Of a stretch of 64,000 nt of DNA, positions 15,119 to 52,667 are shown piece by piece. Under the pieces are notes generated by a model that saw only the letters and a program-made list of their open reading frames with translations, was not told the DNA's origin and made no database searches. The DNA lies in the NCBI RefSeq assembly GCF_001262495.1, contig NZ_LGYE01000002.1:858368-922367 (forward strand). Reading direction: 5' to 3'. Within the stretch, counting starts at the first letter, position 1. Each line of letters starts with the position of its first letter. Made by a program: the position numbers and the translations under genes. This DNA is from Microbacterium sp. GCS4 (GTDB taxonomy: Bacteria > Actinomycetota > Actinomycetes > Actinomycetales > Microbacteriaceae).

Positions 15119-15312
15119 GACACTTCGTCGTGCCGTGAGTCATGCTAGCGATACAGCCTGGGAAGCACCGGGGCGCGGAGGCCCCGTTGCCGTTTCGTGA
15201 TCCAGTACACACCGAACACTCAGATTCGTCCAGGGCTTGACAGGACCACGAGGAATCCCGAGGTTTCGCTCCCTTTATTGCGGCGAACGGAGGAATATTC
15301 CCGCCCCGTTGA

Positions 15313-15318
15313 TACCGT
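15313..15318 (+). promoter_or_regulatory. -10 hexamer TACCGT of the ABC exporter operon
   Basis: TACCGT ends 6 nt before the GTG at 15325, matching the leaderless pattern. A palindromic GGAATATTCC lies about 12-20 bp further upstream, where a regulator could act. Confidence 0.45.
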
Positions 15319-15324
15319 AGGACG

Positions 15325-17106
15325 GTGACTGCCTCCCCCGACGACCGCACCGATCCGGCATCCGATGCCGTGACCCCTTCCGAGAAGAAGACGCCGGTTC
15401 GGAAGACCCCGGCGAAGCGCACTCCCGCGAAGCGGACTCCCGCGCGCTCGGCCGCTGAGCAGGCGGCCCCGACGGTGGAGGTGGTCGTGGAGCCGGTCGC
15501 GAGGACGGATGCCGGTTCGGCGGGCGCAACCGCTCCCACGGCGGCGAAGGCGCCGACGAGGCGCCCGACCGCCGCGAAGAGCACCGCGGCGAGGACGACT
15601 GCGGCGAAGAGCACTGCGGCGAAGAGCAGTGCGGCGAAGAGCAGTGCGGCGAAGTCGACTGCGGCGAAGACGGCTGCAGCCCGCTCGACCGCAGCGAAGG
15701 CGTCTACGGCCAAGTCCGCGGCGACGAAGACCGCAGCGGCCAAGGCGGCGGCGGAGAAGTCGGCGGTGAGGAAGAGCGCCGCCCGCACCACGGCGGCGCG
15801 CACATCGGCCGATCGGACCGCCGCGGCGAAGAAGGCCGCAGCGACCAGGGCTGCCAAGGCTGCAGCCGCGAAGGCGGAGGCCGAGGCGCGAGCCGCGCAG
15901 GAGAACGCGTCGACGGAGGTCGCGGAGATCGCGACGCCCGCGGTCGAGCGTCCCTTGGAGACACAGTCGGAGGTGCCTGCTCCGTTCGAAGCCGTTCCTG
16001 CAGAACCCGCCGCGGCCGAGCCTGAGCGCGAGCCGATGCACCCCGTCGCTGAGGCCGCACTCCCCGCGAAAGGCGCCGATCAGGCAGAGCCGGTCGAGGC
16101 AGAGCCGGTCGAAGCAGAGCCGGTCGAAGCAGAGCCCACCGTGGCGGAGCCGACCGAGGCGGAGCCGGTCACCGAAGCGCCGGCGGAAGACCTTCCCGCA
16201 GCGGTCGACGACGCTCCAGCGGAGGCCGTGGACGACGCTGTCGCCGAGGCCCCTGCACAGGAAGACCCGCCCGTCGAGGAGGTCACCCCGGTTGTCGACG
16301 ATGCTCCGGCGGAGGAGCCCACGACGTCGAGCGCCGCCGCATCCGGAGTCGAGGCCATCCGCATCCGCGGTCTCGTGAAGAGCTTCGGCGATCACATCGC
16401 CGTCAACGGCGTCGACCTGACCGTGCCCGCCGGATCGTTCTACGGCATCGTCGGCCCGAACGGCGCCGGTAAGACGACCACGCTGTCGATCGTGGCCGGT
16501 CTGCTGCGCTCCGACAGCGGCGAGGTCGTGATCTGCGGCGTCGACCAGAGATCCGATCCGCTGGCCGCGAAGAGGATGATGGGCGTCCTCCCGGACCGCC
16601 TGCGCACGTTCGACCGTCTGACGGGGCGTCAGCTCCTCTACTACTACGGCCTGCTCCGCGGCCTGGCCTCCGACGTGATCGAGAAGCGCGTCGGCGATCT
16701 GGCTCGGGCGTTCGACCTCGGCGACGCCCTCGGGCGCGTCGTCTCCGACTACTCCGCCGGCATGACGAAGAAGATCATGCTCGCGGGAGCCATGATCCAC
16801 TCGCCGCGCGTGCTGGTGCTCGACGAGCCCTTCGAGGCGGTCGACCCGGTGTCGTCGGCGGTGATCCTCGACATCCTGCGGGCGTACGTCGCGCACGGCG
16901 GAACCGTGATCCTCTCGAGCCACGGGATGGACCTCGTCGAGCGCGTGTGCTCCCGGGTCGCGATCATCGTGGGCGGAGACGTCCTGGCCGAGGGCACGAT
17001 CGACGAGGTGCGCGCCGGGCAGACGCTCGAGGCGAGGTTCGTCGAGCTGTCCGGCGGCATCGGCGAGGTGGAGGGGCTCGAGTGGCTGCACACGTTCTCC
17101 GACTGA
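15325..17106 (+). CDS. ABC transporter ATPase with a long charge-segregated N-terminal tail
   Basis: 593 residues, more than twice a usual ABC ATPase. Residues 1-342 are low complexity in two parts. About 20-195 are Ala/Lys/Thr-rich, with repeated AAKST/AAKSS units like histone H1 or HU tails. About 200-335 are acidic and proline-rich with EPVEA repeats. The ATPase (343-593) is intact: Walker A GPNGAGKTT near 377, signature YSAGMTKK near 474 and Walker B VLVLDEPFEAVDP. It resembles drug or lipid exporter ATPases and pairs with the permease that follows. The tail may bind nucleic acid, wall polymers or the membrane; that is speculation. Confidence 0.85.
   Translation: MTASPDDRTDPASDAVTPSEKKTPVRKTPAKRTPAKRTPARSAAEQAAPTVEVVVEPVARTDAGSAGATAPTAAKAPTRRPTAAKSTAARTTAAKSTAAKSSAAKSSAAKSTAAKTAAARSTAAKASTAKSAATKTAAAKAAAEKSAVRKSAARTTAARTSADRTAAAKKAAATRAAKAAAAKAEAEARAAQENASTEVAEIATPAVERPLETQSEVPAPFEAVPAEPAAAEPEREPMHPVAEAALPAKGADQAEPVEAEPVEAEPVEAEPTVAEPTEAEPVTEAPAEDLPAAVDDAPAEAVDDAVAEAPAQEDPPVEEVTPVVDDAPAEEPTTSSAAASGVEAIRIRGLVKSFGDHIAVNGVDLTVPAGSFYGIVGPNGAGKTTTLSIVAGLLRSDSGEVVICGVDQRSDPLAAKRMMGVLPDRLRTFDRLTGRQLLYYYGLLRGLASDVIEKRVGDLARAFDLGDALGRVVSDYSAGMTKKIMLAGAMIHSPRVLVLDEPFEAVDPVSSAVILDILRAYVAHGGTVILSSHGMDLVERVCSRVAIIVGGDVLAEGTIDEVRAGQTLEARFVELSGGIGEVEGLEWLHTFSD
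15571..15720 (+). repeat. 15-bp tandem repeat coding for AAKS(T/S) units
   Basis: Units of GCGGCGAAGAGCA(C/G)T are nearly perfect at 15601-15675 and decay on both sides. They keep frame, each coding five residues, so copy-number change would lengthen or shorten the ATPase tail. Confidence 0.75.
16084..16143 (+). repeat. 15-bp tandem repeat coding for AEPVE units
   Basis: Three near-identical 15-bp units and a diverged fourth encode the acidic EPVEA repeats of the ATPase tail. Confidence 0.75.
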
Positions 17107-18647
17107 GGGCAGCGCTCCTGATCGGATCGCTCCGCGGCGAACGTCGGGTGCGGACGCTGCTCATGCTCGCTGTCGTGGTCGTCATCACGGTGCTCGTGTG
17201 CGCCGCGGTGCTGAGCCTCGAGTCCGCTCACGTCGACGTCGCCCGCACGGTCGTCGTCCTCGGCAATGCGGCGCTGTTCCTCGGGTTCCTCGTGGGGCCC
17301 ATCCTCGTCGGCGCGGTCGATCAGCTCGATCCGCGGAGGTTCGCGGTCTTCGGCGTCGACGAGCGACGGATGCCGGCGGTCCTGGCGCTCGCCTCGCTCA
17401 TCAGCATCCCGAGCCTGGCGGTGATCGCCGTGCATGCGAGCGTCTGCGTGGTCGCGGTGCGCCTGGGAGCCCCGTGGCCCGCGGCCGTGCTCCTGAGCGT
17501 GGTCAGCGCACTCACGACGATCCTCGCCGCCCGGGTCGGCATGGCCGTCAACGCCCTGCTGCTGCCCGAGCGCCGATCGCGTGAGCTGACCGCGCTGTTC
17601 GCGCTCGCCGTGATCGTCGTGGCGTTCCCCGTCGCGGTGTTCCTCGCGTCCCTGCGATGGGACGGCCAGGTGCCCGGGATCGTCGAGAGCATCACGACAG
17701 CGATCGGGGTCACGCCGCTCGCAGCCGCCCCGCGCTTCCTGTTCGCGGCTGCGGCGGACGACGTCGCCGGCGCCTGGATCAGCGGCCTCGTGGCCATCGC
17801 CACGCTCGTGATCCTCTGGGTGCTGTGGTCGTGGCTGGTGCGCCGTCTGCTGACGACCACGGAGCGCCCCGTGGCGTCTCGCGAGCGGACGGGTCTCGGC
17901 TGGTTCGGTCTGCTGCCGTCGAACGCCTTCGGCGCGATCGCGGCGCGCAGCCTCGTCTACTGGCTTCGTGACCGCCGGTACATCATGAACGTGATCGTGG
18001 TCCCCATCGCCGGGGTGCTCACCGTGCTGCCGCTCGTGGTCGCGGGCGTGCCGCTGGAGATCGCCGCACTGGTCCCGGTGCCCGTGATGGCCCTCTTCTT
18101 CGGGTGGCTCCCGCACAACGACGTCGCCTACGACTCGACCGCCCTCTGGACGCACGTGGCGAGCGGCGTGCGCGGTGTGCCCGACCGGCTCGGCCGTCTC
18201 GTGCCCGTGCTCCTCGTGGCGCTTCCGGTGCTCGCGGTCGCGGTGCCGCTCACCCTGCTGTCGATCGACGATTGGCGGCTCCTGCTGCCCCTCGTGGGCG
18301 TGGGCGCGAGCCTGCTGCTGTCGGCGCTCGGACTCTCGAGCATCGTGTCGGTGATCGCGCCGTACGCGGTCTCGCGTCCGGGCGACAGCCCGTTCCAGCA
18401 GCCGCAGCGCCCCACGTCGCGCGGCGCCTACGGTCCGGCGGCGGCGTTCCTCGGAGCGATCGTGCTGAGCGGGCCGACGATCTGGCTCTTCGCGCTCACG
18501 ACGATCGAGGGCTCCGCGTACGCGCCGGCGACCTTTTGGGTCGGTCTCGCGAGCGGACTGGTCGTGCTCGCGTTGGGCGTCGTGATCGGCGGGCGGATCT
18601 TCCAGCAGCAGGGCGAGCGGCTGATGGAGTTCGTCGAGACGGCATGA
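17082..18647 (+). CDS. ABC transporter permease, about 12 membrane segments
   Basis: Integral membrane protein of 521 residues. Long hydrophobic stretches start right after a basic N-terminus (LMLAVVVVITVLVCAAVLSL) and recur to the end (GLASGLVVLALGVVIGGRIF). It overlaps the preceding ATPase gene by 25 bp and uses a GTG preceded by GGAGGGG, so the two form one exporter. No substrate-binding protein is present, which agrees with export. Substrate unknown. Part of the hydrophilic loop around residue 270 (TTERPVASRERTG) separates two membrane bundles. Confidence 0.85.
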   Translation: MAAHVLRLRAALLIGSLRGERRVRTLLMLAVVVVITVLVCAAVLSLESAHVDVARTVVVLGNAALFLGFLVGPILVGAVDQLDPRRFAVFGVDERRMPAVLALASLISIPSLAVIAVHASVCVVAVRLGAPWPAAVLLSVVSALTTILAARVGMAVNALLLPERRSRELTALFALAVIVVAFPVAVFLASLRWDGQVPGIVESITTAIGVTPLAAAPRFLFAAAADDVAGAWISGLVAIATLVILWVLWSWLVRRLLTTTERPVASRERTGLGWFGLLPSNAFGAIAARSLVYWLRDRRYIMNVIVVPIAGVLTVLPLVVAGVPLEIAALVPVPVMALFFGWLPHNDVAYDSTALWTHVASGVRGVPDRLGRLVPVLLVALPVLAVAVPLTLLSIDDWRLLLPLVGVGASLLLSALGLSSIVSVIAPYAVSRPGDSPFQQPQRPTSRGAYGPAAAFLGAIVLSGPTIWLFALTTIEGSAYAPATFWVGLASGLVVLALGVVIGGRIFQQQGERLMEFVETA

Positions 18648-18687: not shown

Positions 18688-18954
18688 ATGAGTACTCCGC
18701 TGGACAGCCCCGATCAGGGCGGCGTGGCAACGCTTGATCGCGAACTGGAAGAGCTTCTCCGCGAGGAGAATCTCGAGCCGGGCGACCATGAGCGCTTCTC
18801 GCATTACGTGAAGAAGGACAAGATCCTCGAGTCCGCGATCACCGGCAAGCCGGTGCGGGCGTTATGCGGCAAGAAGTGGACCCCGGGCCGCGACCCGGAG
18901 AAGTTCCCGATCTGCCCCACGTGCAAGGAGATCTACGAGTCGATGGTCGGCTGA
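18688..18954 (+). CDS. DUF3039 family protein, small zinc-finger-like
   Basis: Actinobacterial protein of 88 residues and unknown role. The C-terminal half has ALCGKKWTPGRDPEKFPICPTC, with one cysteine followed by a CxxC pair, and an upstream HY, which could bind one zinc. The N-terminus is acidic and helical. The family is conserved with little length change, which suggests a housekeeping protein partner. Transcribed from its own leaderless promoter. Confidence 0.85.
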   Translation: MSTPLDSPDQGGVATLDRELEELLREENLEPGDHERFSHYVKKDKILESAITGKPVRALCGKKWTPGRDPEKFPICPTCKEIYESMVG

Positions 18955-39409: not shown

Positions 39410-40648
39410 TCAGCGAGCTGCGCCCTGCACGGTGCCCGTGACGTCCTCGTAGCTGTAGACGATGCACACGACCTCACGGTCACCCATCCGCCACGTGCGC
39501 TGCGTCGGCACCGACCAGTAGAAGTCGAGGACCGAGTCGGCGTACGCGTAACCGACGAAGGCTTCGAACTCGGCGATGCAGCGCTCGTCGGCGATCCGGC
39601 TGACCTCCTCGTCGCCCGGGAAGTCGCCGTCGTCGATGTCGAACGTGAAGTACACCTCGTCGGTGTGCGGCTGGTCGCAGGAGACGACGGGCACGTAGTA
39701 GACGTCCTCTTCCCAGTCGACGTAGGGGATGCACTGGCCGACCTCGAGGTCGGCCCAGCCGACCTGCTCCGCGTCGTCGGGGACCGTGGGGCCGTCGCTC
39801 GGCGCTGTCGTCGGAGGAGCGATCGGCGTGCCGCCGGTCTCGGGCGAGGTGCCGGCGGAACCGAACGAGATGAGCACGACCGCGACGGCGAGGAACGACC
39901 CGAGCACGCTCACGCCCATGCCGGCGATACCCGGCCACTTGGGTGCGCGGAAGAACAGCGACACGATGCCGAGCACGAAGGCGAGACCGAGAATCGCCCA
40001 ACCCACGACCGCGATCGCGGGCACACACGACAGGACGGCCCCGAGGACGGCGAGCCCGAGGGCGACCACCCCGAGGATCGGGAACCGGCGTGGCGGAGCC
40101 GCTGCGGCGGGTGCACCCCAGGCGGGCTGTGCGGCGCCGGGGTAGATGTTCGGTGCGCCCCAGCCAGGCTGGGAGACGGAGCCGGGGTATCCCGGGGCGG
40201 CGCTGACCGGCACTGTGGGCTGCTCCGCCGAAGCCGCGCCCGGCAGGGCCCACGGTGGAGTGAAGGCGGCGGTCGCCGCGGCGTCGTGCGGAGGAGCAGG
40301 AGCGCCGACGGCAGGAGCGCCGACGGTGGGCATGCTGTCCACGGGCGTGCCGTCGGTCGCCGGGCCGCTGGTCGGTGTGCTGTCGACCGCCGCGTCGTCG
40401 AGCGGCACGGTCGCCGCAGCATCTGCGGGCGCTCCCTCCGCCGATGCCTCGGTGGAATCGTCGTTCTCCGCGCTCGCGGGGTGCTGTGCGGCGACCGCGG
40501 CTGCATCAGCCTCGGCGGCGGGCGTCGTGGGCGTGGCAGGCGTCGTCGGTGTCGCGGGCGCGGCGAGCGTGTGCTGCGTCCACGCGGAGCCGTCCCACCA
40601 GCGTCGCCGCCCGGAGCCGTCGGCGTACCATCCGGCAGGGATTGTCAT
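39410..40648 (-). CDS. DUF2510 membrane protein with septum-formation-like extracellular domain
   Basis: 412 residues. The N-terminal PAGWYADGSGRRRWWDGSAWTQH is a DUF2510 domain, followed by about 160 residues rich in Ala, Pro and Thr, then two to three membrane helices (FPILGVVALGLAVLGAVLSCV; FLAVAVVLISFGS). The extracytoplasmic C-terminal domain begins at GWADLEVGQCIPYVD and has four cysteines (QCIP, SCDQ, RCIA, VCIV), a layout seen in septum-formation-type domains. Paralogue of the next gene, convergent with prfB. Confidence 0.82.
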   Translation of the reverse strand: MTIPAGWYADGSGRRRWWDGSAWTQHTLAAPATPTTPATPTTPAAEADAAAVAAQHPASAENDDSTEASAEGAPADAAATVPLDDAAVDSTPTSGPATDGTPVDSMPTVGAPAVGAPAPPHDAAATAAFTPPWALPGAASAEQPTVPVSAAPGYPGSVSQPGWGAPNIYPGAAQPAWGAPAAAAPPRRFPILGVVALGLAVLGAVLSCVPAIAVVGWAILGLAFVLGIVSLFFRAPKWPGIAGMGVSVLGSFLAVAVVLISFGSAGTSPETGGTPIAPPTTAPSDGPTVPDDAEQVGWADLEVGQCIPYVDWEEDVYYVPVVSCDQPHTDEVYFTFDIDDGDFPGDEEVSRIADERCIAEFEAFVGYAYADSVLDFYWSVPTQRTWRMGDREVVCIVYSYEDVTGTVQGAAR

Positions 40649-40671
40649 GCCGTCGTCCTCGTCCTTCGTGC

Positions 40672-42177
40672 TCAACCGGCGGTCGCGGTGACCGAGATGC
40701 GGGCGACTTCCTGCAGCAGCTCGTCCGTCACGATGACGGTGTACGAGCCGCTCTGGGCGACGTCGAAGGTCACCTTGCCGTTGACCGACTGTCCGGCAGC
40801 GAGCTCCTCGCTGCCGATCTGGCCGTCGGCGAAGAAGTCGTACGTTCCCTCGACGCCCTCGGCGGTCTCGATGCCGAAGTAGATCGGGTTGACGTAGCTG
40901 GTGCCGGAGACCCCGGACCACGTGATATCGAGGATCACGAAGCCGCCGTTGGTCGCGGGGATGCTCGAGCCGTCGGACGTCGCCCATGTGGCGGAGTTCA
41001 CAGTGACCTCACCCGATCCGGACAGCTGGGTCACGGTGATGGCTTCGCCCATCGTGCCCTCGACGACCTCGGGCGTTCCGAAACCGCCGTCGGAGTCGCC
41101 GTCGGTGCCGGTGTCGCTGTCGCTGGACGGAGGCGAGGTCGGGAAGTCACGGGTGACCTCGGACGCGACCGTCGCCACGAAGAACACGATGGCCACGACG
41201 ACGCCGATGATCGTGCCGACGACCGACAGGATGAGCCCCGTGATGCCGGGCCACTTCCGGCCCTTCAGGAAGAGCGAGATGAGCGAGGCGATGAAGCCGA
41301 CCCCGAGCAGCACGAAGCCGATGATGTTGAGGAACGGGATGAAGGCCAGGATCGTGCCCAGCACGGCGAGGCCGAGACCGACCAGTCCGAGCACCGAGGG
41401 GCGCGCGGGGGCGGCGGGAGCCCCACCGTAACCTCCGGGATAGCCGCCGATCGGGTATCCCGGGCCGCCGGGCGCAGAGCCGGCACCGGAGTAGGCCTGA
41501 GCCGCACCGGGATAGGTCGGCGGCTGTGGGGCGGGCGCAGCGGCGGGGTACGCGACGCCGGCTCCCGGGTAGGTCGGCGCCGGATTGCCGTACGGAGGCA
41601 CGGCGGGATCGAGTGGCGCGGAGGGCCCGGCGGCGCCGGGGGCCGTGAACGGCGTGCCCCATGACGGGGCCTCGGGGGTCGCCGGTGCCGACCAGGACGG
41701 TGCCGCCTCGGGGGCCGTGACCGGTTCGCTCCCAGACGTGGGGACCGCGGTGTCGGGCGCGGGACTCTCGGGCTCGGCGCCGTCGGCCGGAGCCGCGGGC
41801 GCAGCCGCAACGGGCTCAGCGGCAGTGGGTGCAGTCGCAACGGGCTCGGCGGCGACAGGCTCCGCGGCGATGGGTTCAGCGCCGATGCCGACCGCATCCG
41901 CGGTCGGGGTGTTCACACCCGAACCGGCATCCGCTGACCCGGCATCCGCCGATCCGGCACCTGCGGGGGCGGTCTCCGTGGACGGAGCCTCGGACCACGA
42001 CGTCTCGACGGCGGCGACCGATCCGAGCGTCGACTCCGTCTCCGTGGCGGCGGGCGTGGTGTCGGCGGCGGTCACGTCCGCCGGGGCGACCGGGGCGAAG
42101 TGCTCGGTCCACTGGGTGCCGTCCCACCAGCGCTGCCGGCCGGATCCGTCGTCGTACCAGCCTGCGGGCGTCGTCAT
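40672..42177 (-). CDS. DUF2510 membrane protein with DUF4352-like extracellular domain
   Basis: 501 residues with the same layout as its neighbour. DUF2510 start PAGWYDDGSGRQRWWDGTQW, a long Ala/Pro/Glu linker, a Gly/Tyr/Pro-rich stretch (GGPGYPIGGYPGGYGG), membrane helices (SVLGLVGLGLAVLGTILAFIP; GTIIGVVVAIVFFVA) and an extracytoplasmic beta-rich domain (about 375-501). That domain resembles DUF4352/immunoglobulin-like modules. It is 23 bp upstream of the paralogue on the same strand. Role unknown; location beside prfB/ftsEX hints at envelope work. Confidence 0.82.
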   Translation of the reverse strand: MTTPAGWYDDGSGRQRWWDGTQWTEHFAPVAPADVTAADTTPAATETESTLGSVAAVETSWSEAPSTETAPAGAGSADAGSADAGSGVNTPTADAVGIGAEPIAAEPVAAEPVATAPTAAEPVAAAPAAPADGAEPESPAPDTAVPTSGSEPVTAPEAAPSWSAPATPEAPSWGTPFTAPGAAGPSAPLDPAVPPYGNPAPTYPGAGVAYPAAAPAPQPPTYPGAAQAYSGAGSAPGGPGYPIGGYPGGYGGAPAAPARPSVLGLVGLGLAVLGTILAFIPFLNIIGFVLLGVGFIASLISLFLKGRKWPGITGLILSVVGTIIGVVVAIVFFVATVASEVTRDFPTSPPSSDSDTGTDGDSDGGFGTPEVVEGTMGEAITVTQLSGSGEVTVNSATWATSDGSSIPATNGGFVILDITWSGVSGTSYVNPIYFGIETAEGVEGTYDFFADGQIGSEELAAGQSVNGKVTFDVAQSGSYTVIVTDELLQEVARISVTATAG

Positions 42178-42300
42178 GATGGTCCCCTCGGAAGTCTTCG
42201 TCCGCGCTGACCGCGGATCGACACCTCCATGTATAGCAGTGCCCTCGGACGCAGAGGTGGTCTGCGGGGTGTCGCTCGCGGGCACACCATCCGGCGCGCT

Positions 42301-42306
42301 TAGGCT
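42301..42306 (+). promoter_or_regulatory. -10 hexamer TAGGCT of ftsE
   Basis: TAGGCT ends 9 nt before the ftsE ATG. Confidence 0.6.
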
Positions 42307-42315
42307 CGAAGCGCC

Positions 42316-43386
42316 ATGATTCGGTTCGAGAACGTCACGAAACGCTACCGCGGGACCACCAGACCCGCCCTGTCCGGCGTCGACTTCGAAGTCCAGCGCG
42401 GGGAGTTCGTCTTCCTCGTCGGCGCCTCGGGGTCGGGCAAATCGTCGTGTCTGCGACTCATCCTGCGCGAGGACGTCCCCACGACGGGTCGTATCGCCGT
42501 GCTCGGCCGCGACCTGCGGTCGCTGGCGAACCGCAAGGTCCCCTACTTCCGGCGGCACATCGGCTCGGTGTTCCAGGACTTCCGCCTGCTGCCCTCGAAG
42601 ACCGTGTATCAGAACGTCGCGTTCACCCTGCAGGTGACCGGATCGTCACGCGGGTTCATCCAGCAGGCGGTGCCGGAGGCGCTCGCGCTCGTCGGCCTCG
42701 ACGGCAAGCAGAAGCGGATGCCGCACGAGCTGTCCGGTGGGGAGCAGCAGCGTGTGGCGATCGCGCGCGCGCTCGTGAACCGACCTCAGGTCCTGCTGGC
42801 CGACGAGCCGACCGGAAACCTCGACCCCGCGACCTCCGTCGACATCATGCAGCTGCTCGCACGGATCAACGCCGGCGGCACGACCGTGCTCATGGCCACG
42901 CACGAGGCGGCGTTCGTCGACCAGATGCAGCGCCGCGTGATCGAGCTCCGCGACGGCGAGATGGTGCGCGACGAGGTCCACGGTGGCTACGGCGACACGT
43001 CGAACATCCCGCGCCTCGTACCGGAGGAGGTCCGTGGCGCCGCCGCCGCGGCCGCACTCACCGCGGTGCAGGAGGTGCAGCGCCAGACCGCCGATCTCTC
43101 GGTCGTGCGCGCAGCGCTCGCGGAGGAGCTGAGTGCGCAGCGTAGAGCGGCATCGACCGCCCCTGACGCCGTGCCCACGGCATCCGAGATCCCCGAGGCC
43201 CAGGCGGTGCCCATCGAACCGCAGACCGACGTGCAACCCGAGACGACGCCTGAGGCGAAGCCGGCGGCGGTCGGACCGCGCACGCATCCGATCGTCCTGC
43301 CGCAGGTCGACGTGGCTGAGGTGGGGGTCGCAGACCGACTGGGCCTGTCCGACGACGGCGCCGAGGAGGTGGGCCCGACCTCATGA
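42316..43386 (+). CDS. ftsE: FtsE, cell-division ABC ATPase with C-terminal extension
   Basis: ATPase that with FtsX controls peptidoglycan hydrolases at the septum. The first 230 residues are standard: Walker A GASGSGKSS near 36, signature [15 protein letters not shown] near 140 and Walker B VLLADEPTGNLDP. Usual FtsE ends near 230; here about 125 extra residues follow, Ala/Glu/Pro-rich (AAAAAALTAVQEVQRQTADL onward), helical then disordered. The extension may bind cytosolic division proteins. The stop overlaps ftsX by 4 bp. Confidence 0.94.
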   Translation: MIRFENVTKRYRGTTRPALSGVDFEVQRGEFVFLVGASGSGKSSCLRLILREDVPTTGRIAVLGRDLRSLANRKVPYFRRHIGSVFQDFRLLPSKTVYQNVAFTLQVTGSSRGFIQQAVPEALALVGLDGKQKRMPHELSGGEQQRVAIARALVNRPQVLLADEPTGNLDPATSVDIMQLLARINAGGTTVLMATHEAAFVDQMQRRVIELRDGEMVRDEVHGGYGDTSNIPRLVPEEVRGAAAAAALTAVQEVQRQTADLSVVRAALAEELSAQRRAASTAPDAVPTASEIPEAQAVPIEPQTDVQPETTPEAKPAAVGPRTHPIVLPQVDVAEVGVADRLGLSDDGAEEVGPTS

Positions 43387-50682: not shown

Positions 50683-52512
50683 TCAGAACCCGCGGGCGAC
50701 GGCCGCAGCGGCCGACAGCCACGCCTCCTGGGTGGGCGAGGCGAGCGCGCGCAGCCGAAGGTGACCGTCGACCATCTCCCGGTCGTAGGGGATCTGTACG
50801 ACTTCCCGCGCGAGCGGCTGATAGCCGGCGACGACCTCGGCGATCTCGGCGGACGAGGCCTTGGGGTCGGCCTGGCTCACCACGACGACGGCCTGGCGCG
50901 CGAGATGGGCGGACCGCTCGTCGCGGTCCTCCAGCGCCTCCAGGAGCAGTGCCCCTGCTTCGGCGTGGTCGTCGCGGGTCGTCGTGGCGACGACGAGCTG
51001 GTCGGCACGGTCGATCATCCGCAACCACATCGGGTCGGACTCGTCGTTGCCCGAGTCGATGATGATGAGACGGTAGAACTTCGCGGCGACCGCGTGGATC
51101 GCATCCACGTCCGCGGGACTCAGCCTGTTCTCGTGCGCGAGCCGGATCGGCTTCGACCGCAGCACGTCGTACTTCTCCTGCGGCTGGTGGTGCACGAAAT
51201 GCGCGAGGTCGGCGGACTGCCCTTGGGCGCCCAGCAGCCTCTGCGTCTGGGGGAGCAGTTCCAGGAGGGTGCGATCGTGCGCCCCGGTCTCGGTGCGCCA
51301 CCCGAGCGTTCCCCGGGTCTGGTTGTTGTCCCAGGCGAGCACCCCGGCGCCACCGTACTGCGCGAACACCGCGGACAGCAGCACGGTCGCCGGGGTCTTC
51401 CCCGCTCCGCCCTTGCCGTTGACGACTGCGACGGTGCGAGGTCCCGGCCAGTGGCGGCTCACGGCATGCTCGTCATCGCGCTGTGCGCGTTCGCTCGCGT
51501 TCGGTCCCAGGGAGAACCCGAGACGGTTGAGGAAGCCGCGTCCTCCGCGGCGGGCGGGATCCTCGCGCGGATCCTGCTGGAGGAAGGAACGCCGCTCGAC
51601 ACCCTGCTCGCGCTGCTCGCGCCGGGATGCGGCGGGGTGGTCGGATGCCGACGCGGCAGGTGCCTGCGGCGCGGCGGGCGCGTGCGGCGCGGCGGGTGTC
51701 TGCGGTGCGGCGGGCGCGTGCGGTGCGGTGGGTGCCTGCGATGCGGCAGGCGGATGCTGCGCGGCCGGCGTATGTGGAGCCGCCGGCGCGTGCGGTGTGG
51801 CGGGCGCGTGCGATGCGGCGGGCGCGAACGGAGCCGAGGGAGCAGAGGTCCGCGGCGGATGCGCCCCGGGAACCTTCTCGACGAGTTCCGGCTGAGCCGG
51901 CGAGGTCGGCTGAGGTGGTGCTGCCGTCGCCGCCGGTGACGAGGGCGCGCCGGATGCCGGTGGCATGGTGGGCCGTGCCGCGGGCGCGGTGCCCTGGTCG
52001 GCGGCCTGCGGTGGGACGGGCATCGCGGTGGGCACGGGCGGCGTCGCCGGGGCGGACGGGATGCTCGCGGTGCTCGGCGACGGTGTGGTCGCCGGGTCGG
52101 GTGGGCTCGTCTGCGTCTGCGGGCTCGCCTGCGCAGGGGCGGGAGCGGGCGCGGTCACCTCGGATGGGGCGGCGGGTCGGTTCGCGGCGGCGGCGGCCGC
52201 AGCGGCACGCGTCGTGGGAGCGGGCACGGTGCGGGGCGCGGGAGTGACGGCCGGCGCGGTAGCGGACGTCGGCGGAGTCGTCGGGGCACCCGGGGTCACC
52301 GGCGCGGCCGGAGCCGGAGGAGTCGGGGGGTGGTCAGTCGGCGCCGCGGTTGGCGTCCGAGATACCGCGTATCCCGGCATGGTGGGCCAGTCGTCGTCAT
52401 CCTGGTCCTGCGGAGTGAGGGGCACGTGCTCGACGAGCTCGGGCGTCTCGGGCGGGCTCGTGTTTCCCCGCCGCAGGGGGCCTCCGCCGTAGGCTTCGCC
52501 GTCGCGCGTCAT
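50683..52512 (-). CDS. ParA/MinD-like ATPase with long Pro/Ala-rich N-terminal tail
   Basis: 609 residues. About 1-330 are proline-alanine-rich and likely disordered, including nine 6-residue units of the [12 protein letters not shown] type. The C-terminal 260 residues are a P-loop ATPase: deviant Walker [12 protein letters not shown] near residue 368, [13 protein letters not shown] near 394 and [13 protein letters not shown] as Walker B region near 476. The tail-plus-ATPase layout recalls EspI-like and other actinobacterial partition-type proteins, perhaps polar or surface localisation. Runs opposite to the his genes it separates. GGAGAAGG precedes the ATG. Confidence 0.82.
51667..51828 (-). 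repeat. 18-bp tandem repeat in the ParA-like gene
   Basis: Nine imperfect 18-bp units (plus-strand form CGGTGCGGCGGGCGCGTG) encode the 6-residue Pro/Ala repeats of the tail. The frame is kept, so copy-number change would only alter tail length. Confidence 0.75.
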
Positions 52513-52667
52513 GGACCTTCTCCTCGTCGACCGGATACACGTGTCTTCGAGGCTACCGCGTGGCATCCGTCCCACGGTGTCACGCTCATTTGGAGCGGAC
52601 GGATGCGGCGGCTAGTGTCGATTCTCGTGCCGACGAATCGGCGCTCCCGATCCCACCTGAGGACGTC

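Follow-up and report, generated by a model that had tools for sequence, protein, structure and literature searches.

In the window, that is, the whole 64,000-nucleotide stretch of Microbacterium sp. GCS4 DNA analysed here, part of contig C2 in a genome of 3.65 Mb, an exporter-type ABC ATPase carries a 340-residue low-complexity N-terminal tail that is basic in its first part and acidic in its second, an anatomy of which we are practically certain. Our comparisons also support that this tail is a trait of the Microbacteriaceae clade within this exporter ATPase, and that its sequence and length drift fast while its basic-then-acidic order is kept in the genus.

Table. Coordinates in the window of the tailed ATPase gene, its parts, and its neighbours
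Feature	Position	Strand	Basis
Extended -10 element TGATACCGT, 6 nt upstream of the GTG	15310..15318	+	TGnTAnnnT in genus orthologs
Tailed ABC ATPase of 593 aa, from the GTG start through the stop codon	15325..17106	+	ORF translation and Pfam
N-terminal cap, residues 1-20 (VTASPDDRTD...), short and polar; first residues similar among relatives	15325..15384	+	
Basic Ala/Lys/Thr/Ser block, residues 21-197, net +28	15385..15915	+	Residue count
15-bp tandem array within the basic block, AAKST-type units	15574..15670	+	Tandem Repeats Finder
One long predicted helix, residues 137-199, overlapping the best-conserved-looking basic stretch	15733..15921	+	AlphaFold2 and comparison with close relatives
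Acidic Ala/Glu/Pro/Val block, residues 198-340, net -36, predicted disordered	15916..16344	+	Residue count and AlphaFold2
15-bp tandem array within the acidic block, AEPVE units	16082..16170	+	Tandem Repeats Finder
ABC ATPase domain, residues 341-593	16345..17103	+	Pfam, alignment, AlphaFold2
Partner permease, 521 aa, inferred GTG start, 25 bp overlap with the ATPase gene	17082..18647	+	
DUF3039 gene, syntenic within the family	18688..18954	+	

Upstream, the open reading frame is bounded by an in-frame stop at 15310, and the charges within its tail are strongly segregated: residues 21-197 contain 37 Lys/Arg against 9 Asp/Glu, and residues 198-341 contain 3 against 39. The cumulative charge along the tail spans a range of 38, whereas 20,000 shuffles averaged 16.7 and never exceeded 30, which places its charge blocks beyond chance in this test. 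The ATPase domain that follows looks intact, with the motifs GPNGAGKTT, SAGM, LVLDEP, and SSHGM in place; it is assigned to ABC_tran (PF00005) with an E value of 3.4e-23 and 83.2 bits against a cut-off of 25, and the Walker A, signature, Walker B, and H-loop residues are invariant or near-invariant in 37 aligned genus proteins. Residue counts, shuffles, and the ABC_tran match thus confirm the claim of an earlier note on this DNA that some 340 charge-segregated residues precede an intact ATPase, and its view that the tail is carried by an ATPase of the exporter type is supported as well. The in-frame 15-bp repeats which that note had placed at 15601-15675 and 16084-16143 are real, in arrays wider than it had claimed: the array in the basic block has 6.5 copies with an 84% match (11.9 copies and 69% for a looser array at 15586-15764), and the array in the acidic block has 5.9 copies with an 85% match.

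Very probably, the ATPase is translated together with its tail. The sequence upstream of the GTG is TTGATACCGTAGGACG, and among the 95 genus orthologs (ATPase identity above 64%, the window's own included), TGnTAnnnT ends 3-7 nt before an in-frame start in 89, in every one of which a T precedes it (89/89); the spacing between element and start is 6 nt in 76, 7 nt in 7, and 3 nt in the remaining 6, where the usual start sits one codon further on. As a control, the element was found before 6 of 3936 other in-frame start codons. A -10 box of this kind marks a transcription start a few nucleotides downstream, and we read the conserved spacing as the likely signature of a leaderless mRNA. The start peptide VTAS[LP] is present in 13 of the 26 tails of the window's clade (0.0073 when shuffled), and [VM]T[AP]SLPxP in 40 of the 59 genus tails outside it (0.0001 when shuffled), these expressions, like that of the motif described below, having been chosen after inspecting the sequences. 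No stop falls in the reading frame over 26,852 tail codons, compared with 295 and 449 in the shifted frames, an openness that arises partly by construction because the tails were defined inside an open frame. Moreover, Trp, Cys, Phe, Tyr, and His together average 0.9% of the genus tails, with 4.2% as the largest value, compared with 4.5-11% in 14 upstream frames from outside the family. The rival view, in which the upstream frame is open and untranslated and the true start lies near residue 340, may appeal to the commonness of open frames in DNA of 70% GC and to three uncut orthologs (L098, L100, and L102) without the element before an upstream in-frame start, the other three of the six that lack it being cut by contig ends; yet the rarity of the element before other start codons, the similar peptide at the conserved start across the genus, the 15-bp repeats that keep the reading frame, and the residue composition of the tails all argue against it, and we hold it to be extremely improbable. 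On start element and start peptide together we reject such a late start, which the earlier note had named as the finding to set against its own reading, and which the leaderless-type start and the conserved residues behind it therefore contradict at the sequence level.

ATPase matches at E<=1e-50 were found in 97 of 99 genus genomes, and the loci of 95 of these, each from another species, were used, G023 and G091 being left out for their weak or partial matches; the start element is present in 89, of which 87 are uncut and 85 have tails of at least 60 residues. The 85 tails measure 62-594 residues, with a median of 319, and two further ones (L096 and L097) have 11 residues; L102, which has no start element, has 8 open codons before its ATPase. 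Judged by charge centroids, basic precedes acidic in all 85 tails (permutation p<0.01 in 70), and likewise in 75 of 75 tails from a second, overlapping set of 80 loci, the other 5 of which are cut off, the species of one genus being non-independent samples in these counts. With net charges between -85 and +28, the genus tails keep no fixed charge balance. In eight loci whose ATPases are 93.7-96.4% identical to that of the window, the tails have 279-394 residues and the repeat arrays differ, so that the repeat-based variation in length suggested earlier for strains holds at least between species. A conserved segment with a VEP motif recurs in 12 of the 26 tails of the window's clade (0.0094 when shuffled). 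In 16 pairs, pN/pS is 0.32-0.70 in the tails, always below 1, and 0.01-0.25 in the ATPases, for pairs that were hand-chosen and sometimes share a species, with a protein-based alignment that lowers the tail values and an unsure alignment of the repeats.

Across the Microbacteriaceae, a match at E<=1e-75 occurs in 161 of 199 genomes and 71 of 85 genera, some of these matches being paralogs. Of 60 hand-chosen family representatives, mostly one per genus, 54 have an identified start and are uncut, the chosen starts of L190, L223, L225, and L227 being doubtful, and 51 of these 54 have tails of at least 60 residues. Their block order is mixed, with 31 of 51 basic first (10 at p<0.01) and 20 acidic first (5 at p<0.01), and therefore what is constant in the family is a long Ala/Pro/Thr/Ser-rich tail with Lys/Arg and Asp/Glu, the order being a trait of the genus. 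In a quick tree of 198 ATPase domains, in which 87 of 195 inner branches are left open, all 95 genus loci group together, and a branch with SH-aLRT 99 separates 154 rows, among them every one of the 129 whose tail reaches 100 residues, from 15 paralogs, 28 rows from outside the family, and L225. The short-tailed L096, L097, L102, L197, and L220 lie inside the tailed side, L102 having been placed by hand among the short tails because no start element was found; we read these as losses, and the tail is therefore dispensable for the persistence of the pump, that is, accessory.

The next ATPase in the window's own genome is only 35% identical, and for this reason paralogs were drawn from other species of the genus, where none of 15 has such a tail; these tail-less relatives serve as a control for mutational habit alone. 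Two of them, L112 and L113, seemed tailed at first look, but codon composition and a close ATG speak against it. Outside the family, no tail was seen at 32 loci (28 distinct ATPases): 18 have fewer than 60 open codons before the ATPase, and the other 14, the upstream frames already mentioned, whose starts are provisional, have 0-0.7% Lys along with their higher share of Trp, Cys, Phe, Tyr, and His, a composition unlike that of the tails, so they were not counted as such. The -10 element is present at three of the outside loci (L164, L167, and L168), before N-termini of 18-27 residues. Spread by plasmids was also considered and set aside, the only plasmid match at E<=1e-60 covering just query residues 344-588.

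In the genus, outside the window's clade, we also found a proline-rich motif, PP[KR]PPLP, which is new here and occurs in 39 of 59 tails (those of L038-L099), compared with 0.0002 in shuffled tails; it occurs in none of the 26 tails of the window's clade and in none of the 54 family representatives. In 37 of the 39 tails, the motif comes after the best charge split, from which it is separated by a median of 30 residues and at most 157; in 38, it follows two aliphatic or aromatic residues. A looser expression, adding PP[KR]P.[LVI]P as well as PPLP followed by an Ala-rich stretch, finds 48 of 59 (0.0044 when shuffled). PPKPPLP also appears in a study of an SH3 domain. A search for a partner and for other motif proteins in six genomes identified no partner, the control pattern being about equally frequent overall; plausible coding frames with the motif beyond the tail are L358, L362, and the ends of L363 and L378. 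Lying near the block junction, the motif may add a specific partner outside the window's clade.

An AlphaFold2 model of the ATPase with its tail, built with 37 sequences, gives a confident ATPase and pLDDT values below 50 over residues 1-70, 72-137, and 202-340. Between these, the long helix is predicted with low confidence up to about residue 160 and with block means above 70 only from about residue 161, and it overlaps the basic stretch that appears by eye to be the best conserved in close relatives. The basic block as a whole is poor in bulky hydrophobic residues, and the helix is nearly without them, so any contact with the membrane would be electrostatic.

As the best explanation, which we put forward tentatively and with somewhat less than even confidence, we propose that the tail is a selected, disordered polyampholyte that tethers or clusters the pump electrostatically and in some lineages also docks a partner. 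Such a tail would work as a flexible electrostatic polymer, probably in two copies per exporter, the basic block loosely binding a polyanion or an anionic surface, be it the inner leaflet, RNA, or DNA, and the acidic block acting as a counter-charged spacer that would keep the basic block away from its own ATPase. Alternatively, the acidic block may pair with the basic blocks of neighbouring pumps, which would then be clustered or held in place. The earlier description of the acidic part as a counter-charged brush is fair as a description, and any function as a brush is putative. Several results speak against our proposal, namely the mixed order in the family, the lack of the proline-rich motif in the window's own clade and in the family representatives, the persistence of the exporter with tails of 11 residues or with 8 open codons, the wide span of net charge, and the distance between motif and charge split, which reaches 157 residues.

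A different explanation is that the tail is merely tolerated low-complexity sequence, produced by slippage of GC-rich 15-bp repeats in a gene end that can accommodate it, and functionless beyond solubility or bulk. The rapid turnover of the tails in sequence and length, their absence from some orthologs, the mixed block order across the family, and the low-complexity stretches in further genes of the window all agree with this explanation, which we consider unlikely but of real weight, given that the order is kept in 85 of 85 genus tails, that pN/pS is below 1 in 16 of 16 pairs, though with a pN lowered by the protein-based alignment, that the proline-rich motif and the start peptide far exceed their shuffled frequencies, and that 15 paralogs of the same genus lack such a tail.

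Other proteins of the window do have low-complexity stretches, and such tails are therefore not rare in it. An FtsE-like ATPase of 356 residues (42316-43386, + strand), so named from its sequence, ends at its C-terminus in an acidic, proline-rich stretch of about 130 residues, and an ATPase that reads as ParA/MinD-like (50683-52575, - strand) has a long Pro/Ala/Thr N-terminal tail with 18-bp repeats at 51652-51826. Two adjoining membrane proteins (39410-40987 and 40672-42558, - strand) combine a PAGWYxDGSGRxRWWDG motif with Ala/Glu/Pro linkers, and one of them carries 15-bp repeats at 41796-41881. Crude gene calling over 464 kb, the window included, gave 367 genes and 3 with both charge blocks, which makes a weak control that carries no weight in our reading; the two other than the ATPase gene look like false upstream extensions.

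The basic part had also been likened to histone H1 in the earlier note, and this stands as a likeness of composition: Pfam HC2 matches 5 of the 37 aligned genus proteins at E<=0.01, the window's among them, with a best value of 1.3e-7. As an assignment it does not stand, the window protein scoring 21.1 bits (E 0.00038) under a cut-off of 40, and the likeness would be one of composition rather than demonstrated homology. HupB-type Lys/Ala tails presumably resemble the basic block too. The primary sigma factor of the same genome (L273) has, by our reading of its sequence, a short N-terminal tail that is overall basic and then acidic, unlike the tail studied here in its length of about 100 residues, in its more mixed charges, and in being attached to a transcription protein; the window tail gives a weak phmmer match (E 0.0026) to the SigA chain in 8dy7 and 8dy9. 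DNA binding by the tail is thus conceivable, and it is possible to imagine the basic block binding DNA as the H1, HC2, and HupB tails do, anchoring the exporter to the nucleoid, with the acidic block tuning the binding. The HC2-like composition, the scarcity of bulky hydrophobic residues in the basic block, and the tail of the genome's own sigma factor would fit such an anchor, but the HC2 score lies below its cut-off, membrane lipids or RNA would serve just as well as polyanions, a net acidic charge is common among genus tails, the acidic block comes first in some tails of the family, and an HU-like protein of the same genome (L276) is without a Lys-rich tail, so we regard anchoring to the nucleoid as rather unlikely.

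As for the exporter to which the tail belongs, in the stretches fetched the permease gene adjoins the ATPase gene in 60 of 60 family representatives and 20 of 20 loci outside the family, and DUF3039 is present in 64 of 65 genus loci, 56 of 60 family representatives, and 2 of 20 loci outside the family. The permease model has a mean pLDDT of 85 and, weakly, most resembles the mycobacterial Rv1217c pump: this pump heads the Foldseek list (E 3e-4 to 1.4e-3, TM 0.29-0.38), and 8k1n, 8k1m, and 8k1p give the only full-length alignments of the model among the best 50 rows (Z 9.2-10.9, rmsd 7.5-9.4; for 8k1n_C, Z 10.9 with 401 aligned residues and an rmsd of 7.8). Matches of Z 9-11 may reflect only a shared helical arrangement; a comparison of the permease with the Rv1217c pump by sequence profile gave no match, and the C-terminal half of the permease fits CcmB (Z 16.3), NosY, and ABCG better than Rv1217c among the structural matches listed. 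The ATPase is homologous to Rv1218c (8k1n_E, E 1.8e-33), and ABCA ATPase domains score higher, so that the match to Rv1218c alone is non-specific. Six Rv1218c chains occur across three PDB entries and two in a fourth; with two ATPase chains in the related pump, each exporter would carry two tails.

A bolder extension of our proposal, which we regard as doubtful, is that charge-block tails across the family form membrane-attached condensates of pumps or fasten them to the nucleoid, with the proline-rich motif near the junction recruiting a partner. If it were true, charge pattern and repeat number, rather than a folded anchor, would set the position of the pump. The 95 genus genomes constitute a natural bacterial series of the same exporter ATPase with tails of 62-594 residues, with losses, with tail-less paralogs, and with a motif present in part of the genus, and therefore whether selection keeps charge pattern over sequence, and what role the tail has for the pump, become directly testable.

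Discussion of long disordered tails that combine opposite charge blocks has mostly concerned eukaryotic condensates. In the literature searched, which was mainly open-access, such a tail on an exporter ATPase was not found, and the portion of the literature on coacervating charge-segregated proteins that was consulted included no bacterial exporter ATPase among the matches listed. The tail in the window is like those coacervating proteins in having opposite charge blocks in a single disordered chain. With HC2 and histone H1-like tails, it shares an Ala/Lys-rich low complexity, short tandem units, and few bulky hydrophobic residues, and it differs from HC2 in its fusion to an ABC ATPase and in the acidic block that follows the basic one. 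The mycobacterial multidrug exporter Rv1217c-Rv1218c (PDB 8k1m, 8k1n, 8k1o, and 8k1p) has, as here, one ATPase gene beside one permease gene. That locus, which we take to be adjoined by the regulator Rv1219c, differs from the one described here, where the exporter genes neighbour a divergent NTP-transferase gene and DUF3039, and the Rv1218c chains, with 289-311 residues aligning from residue 3 or 10, have no long N-terminal tail, unlike the ATPase of the window.
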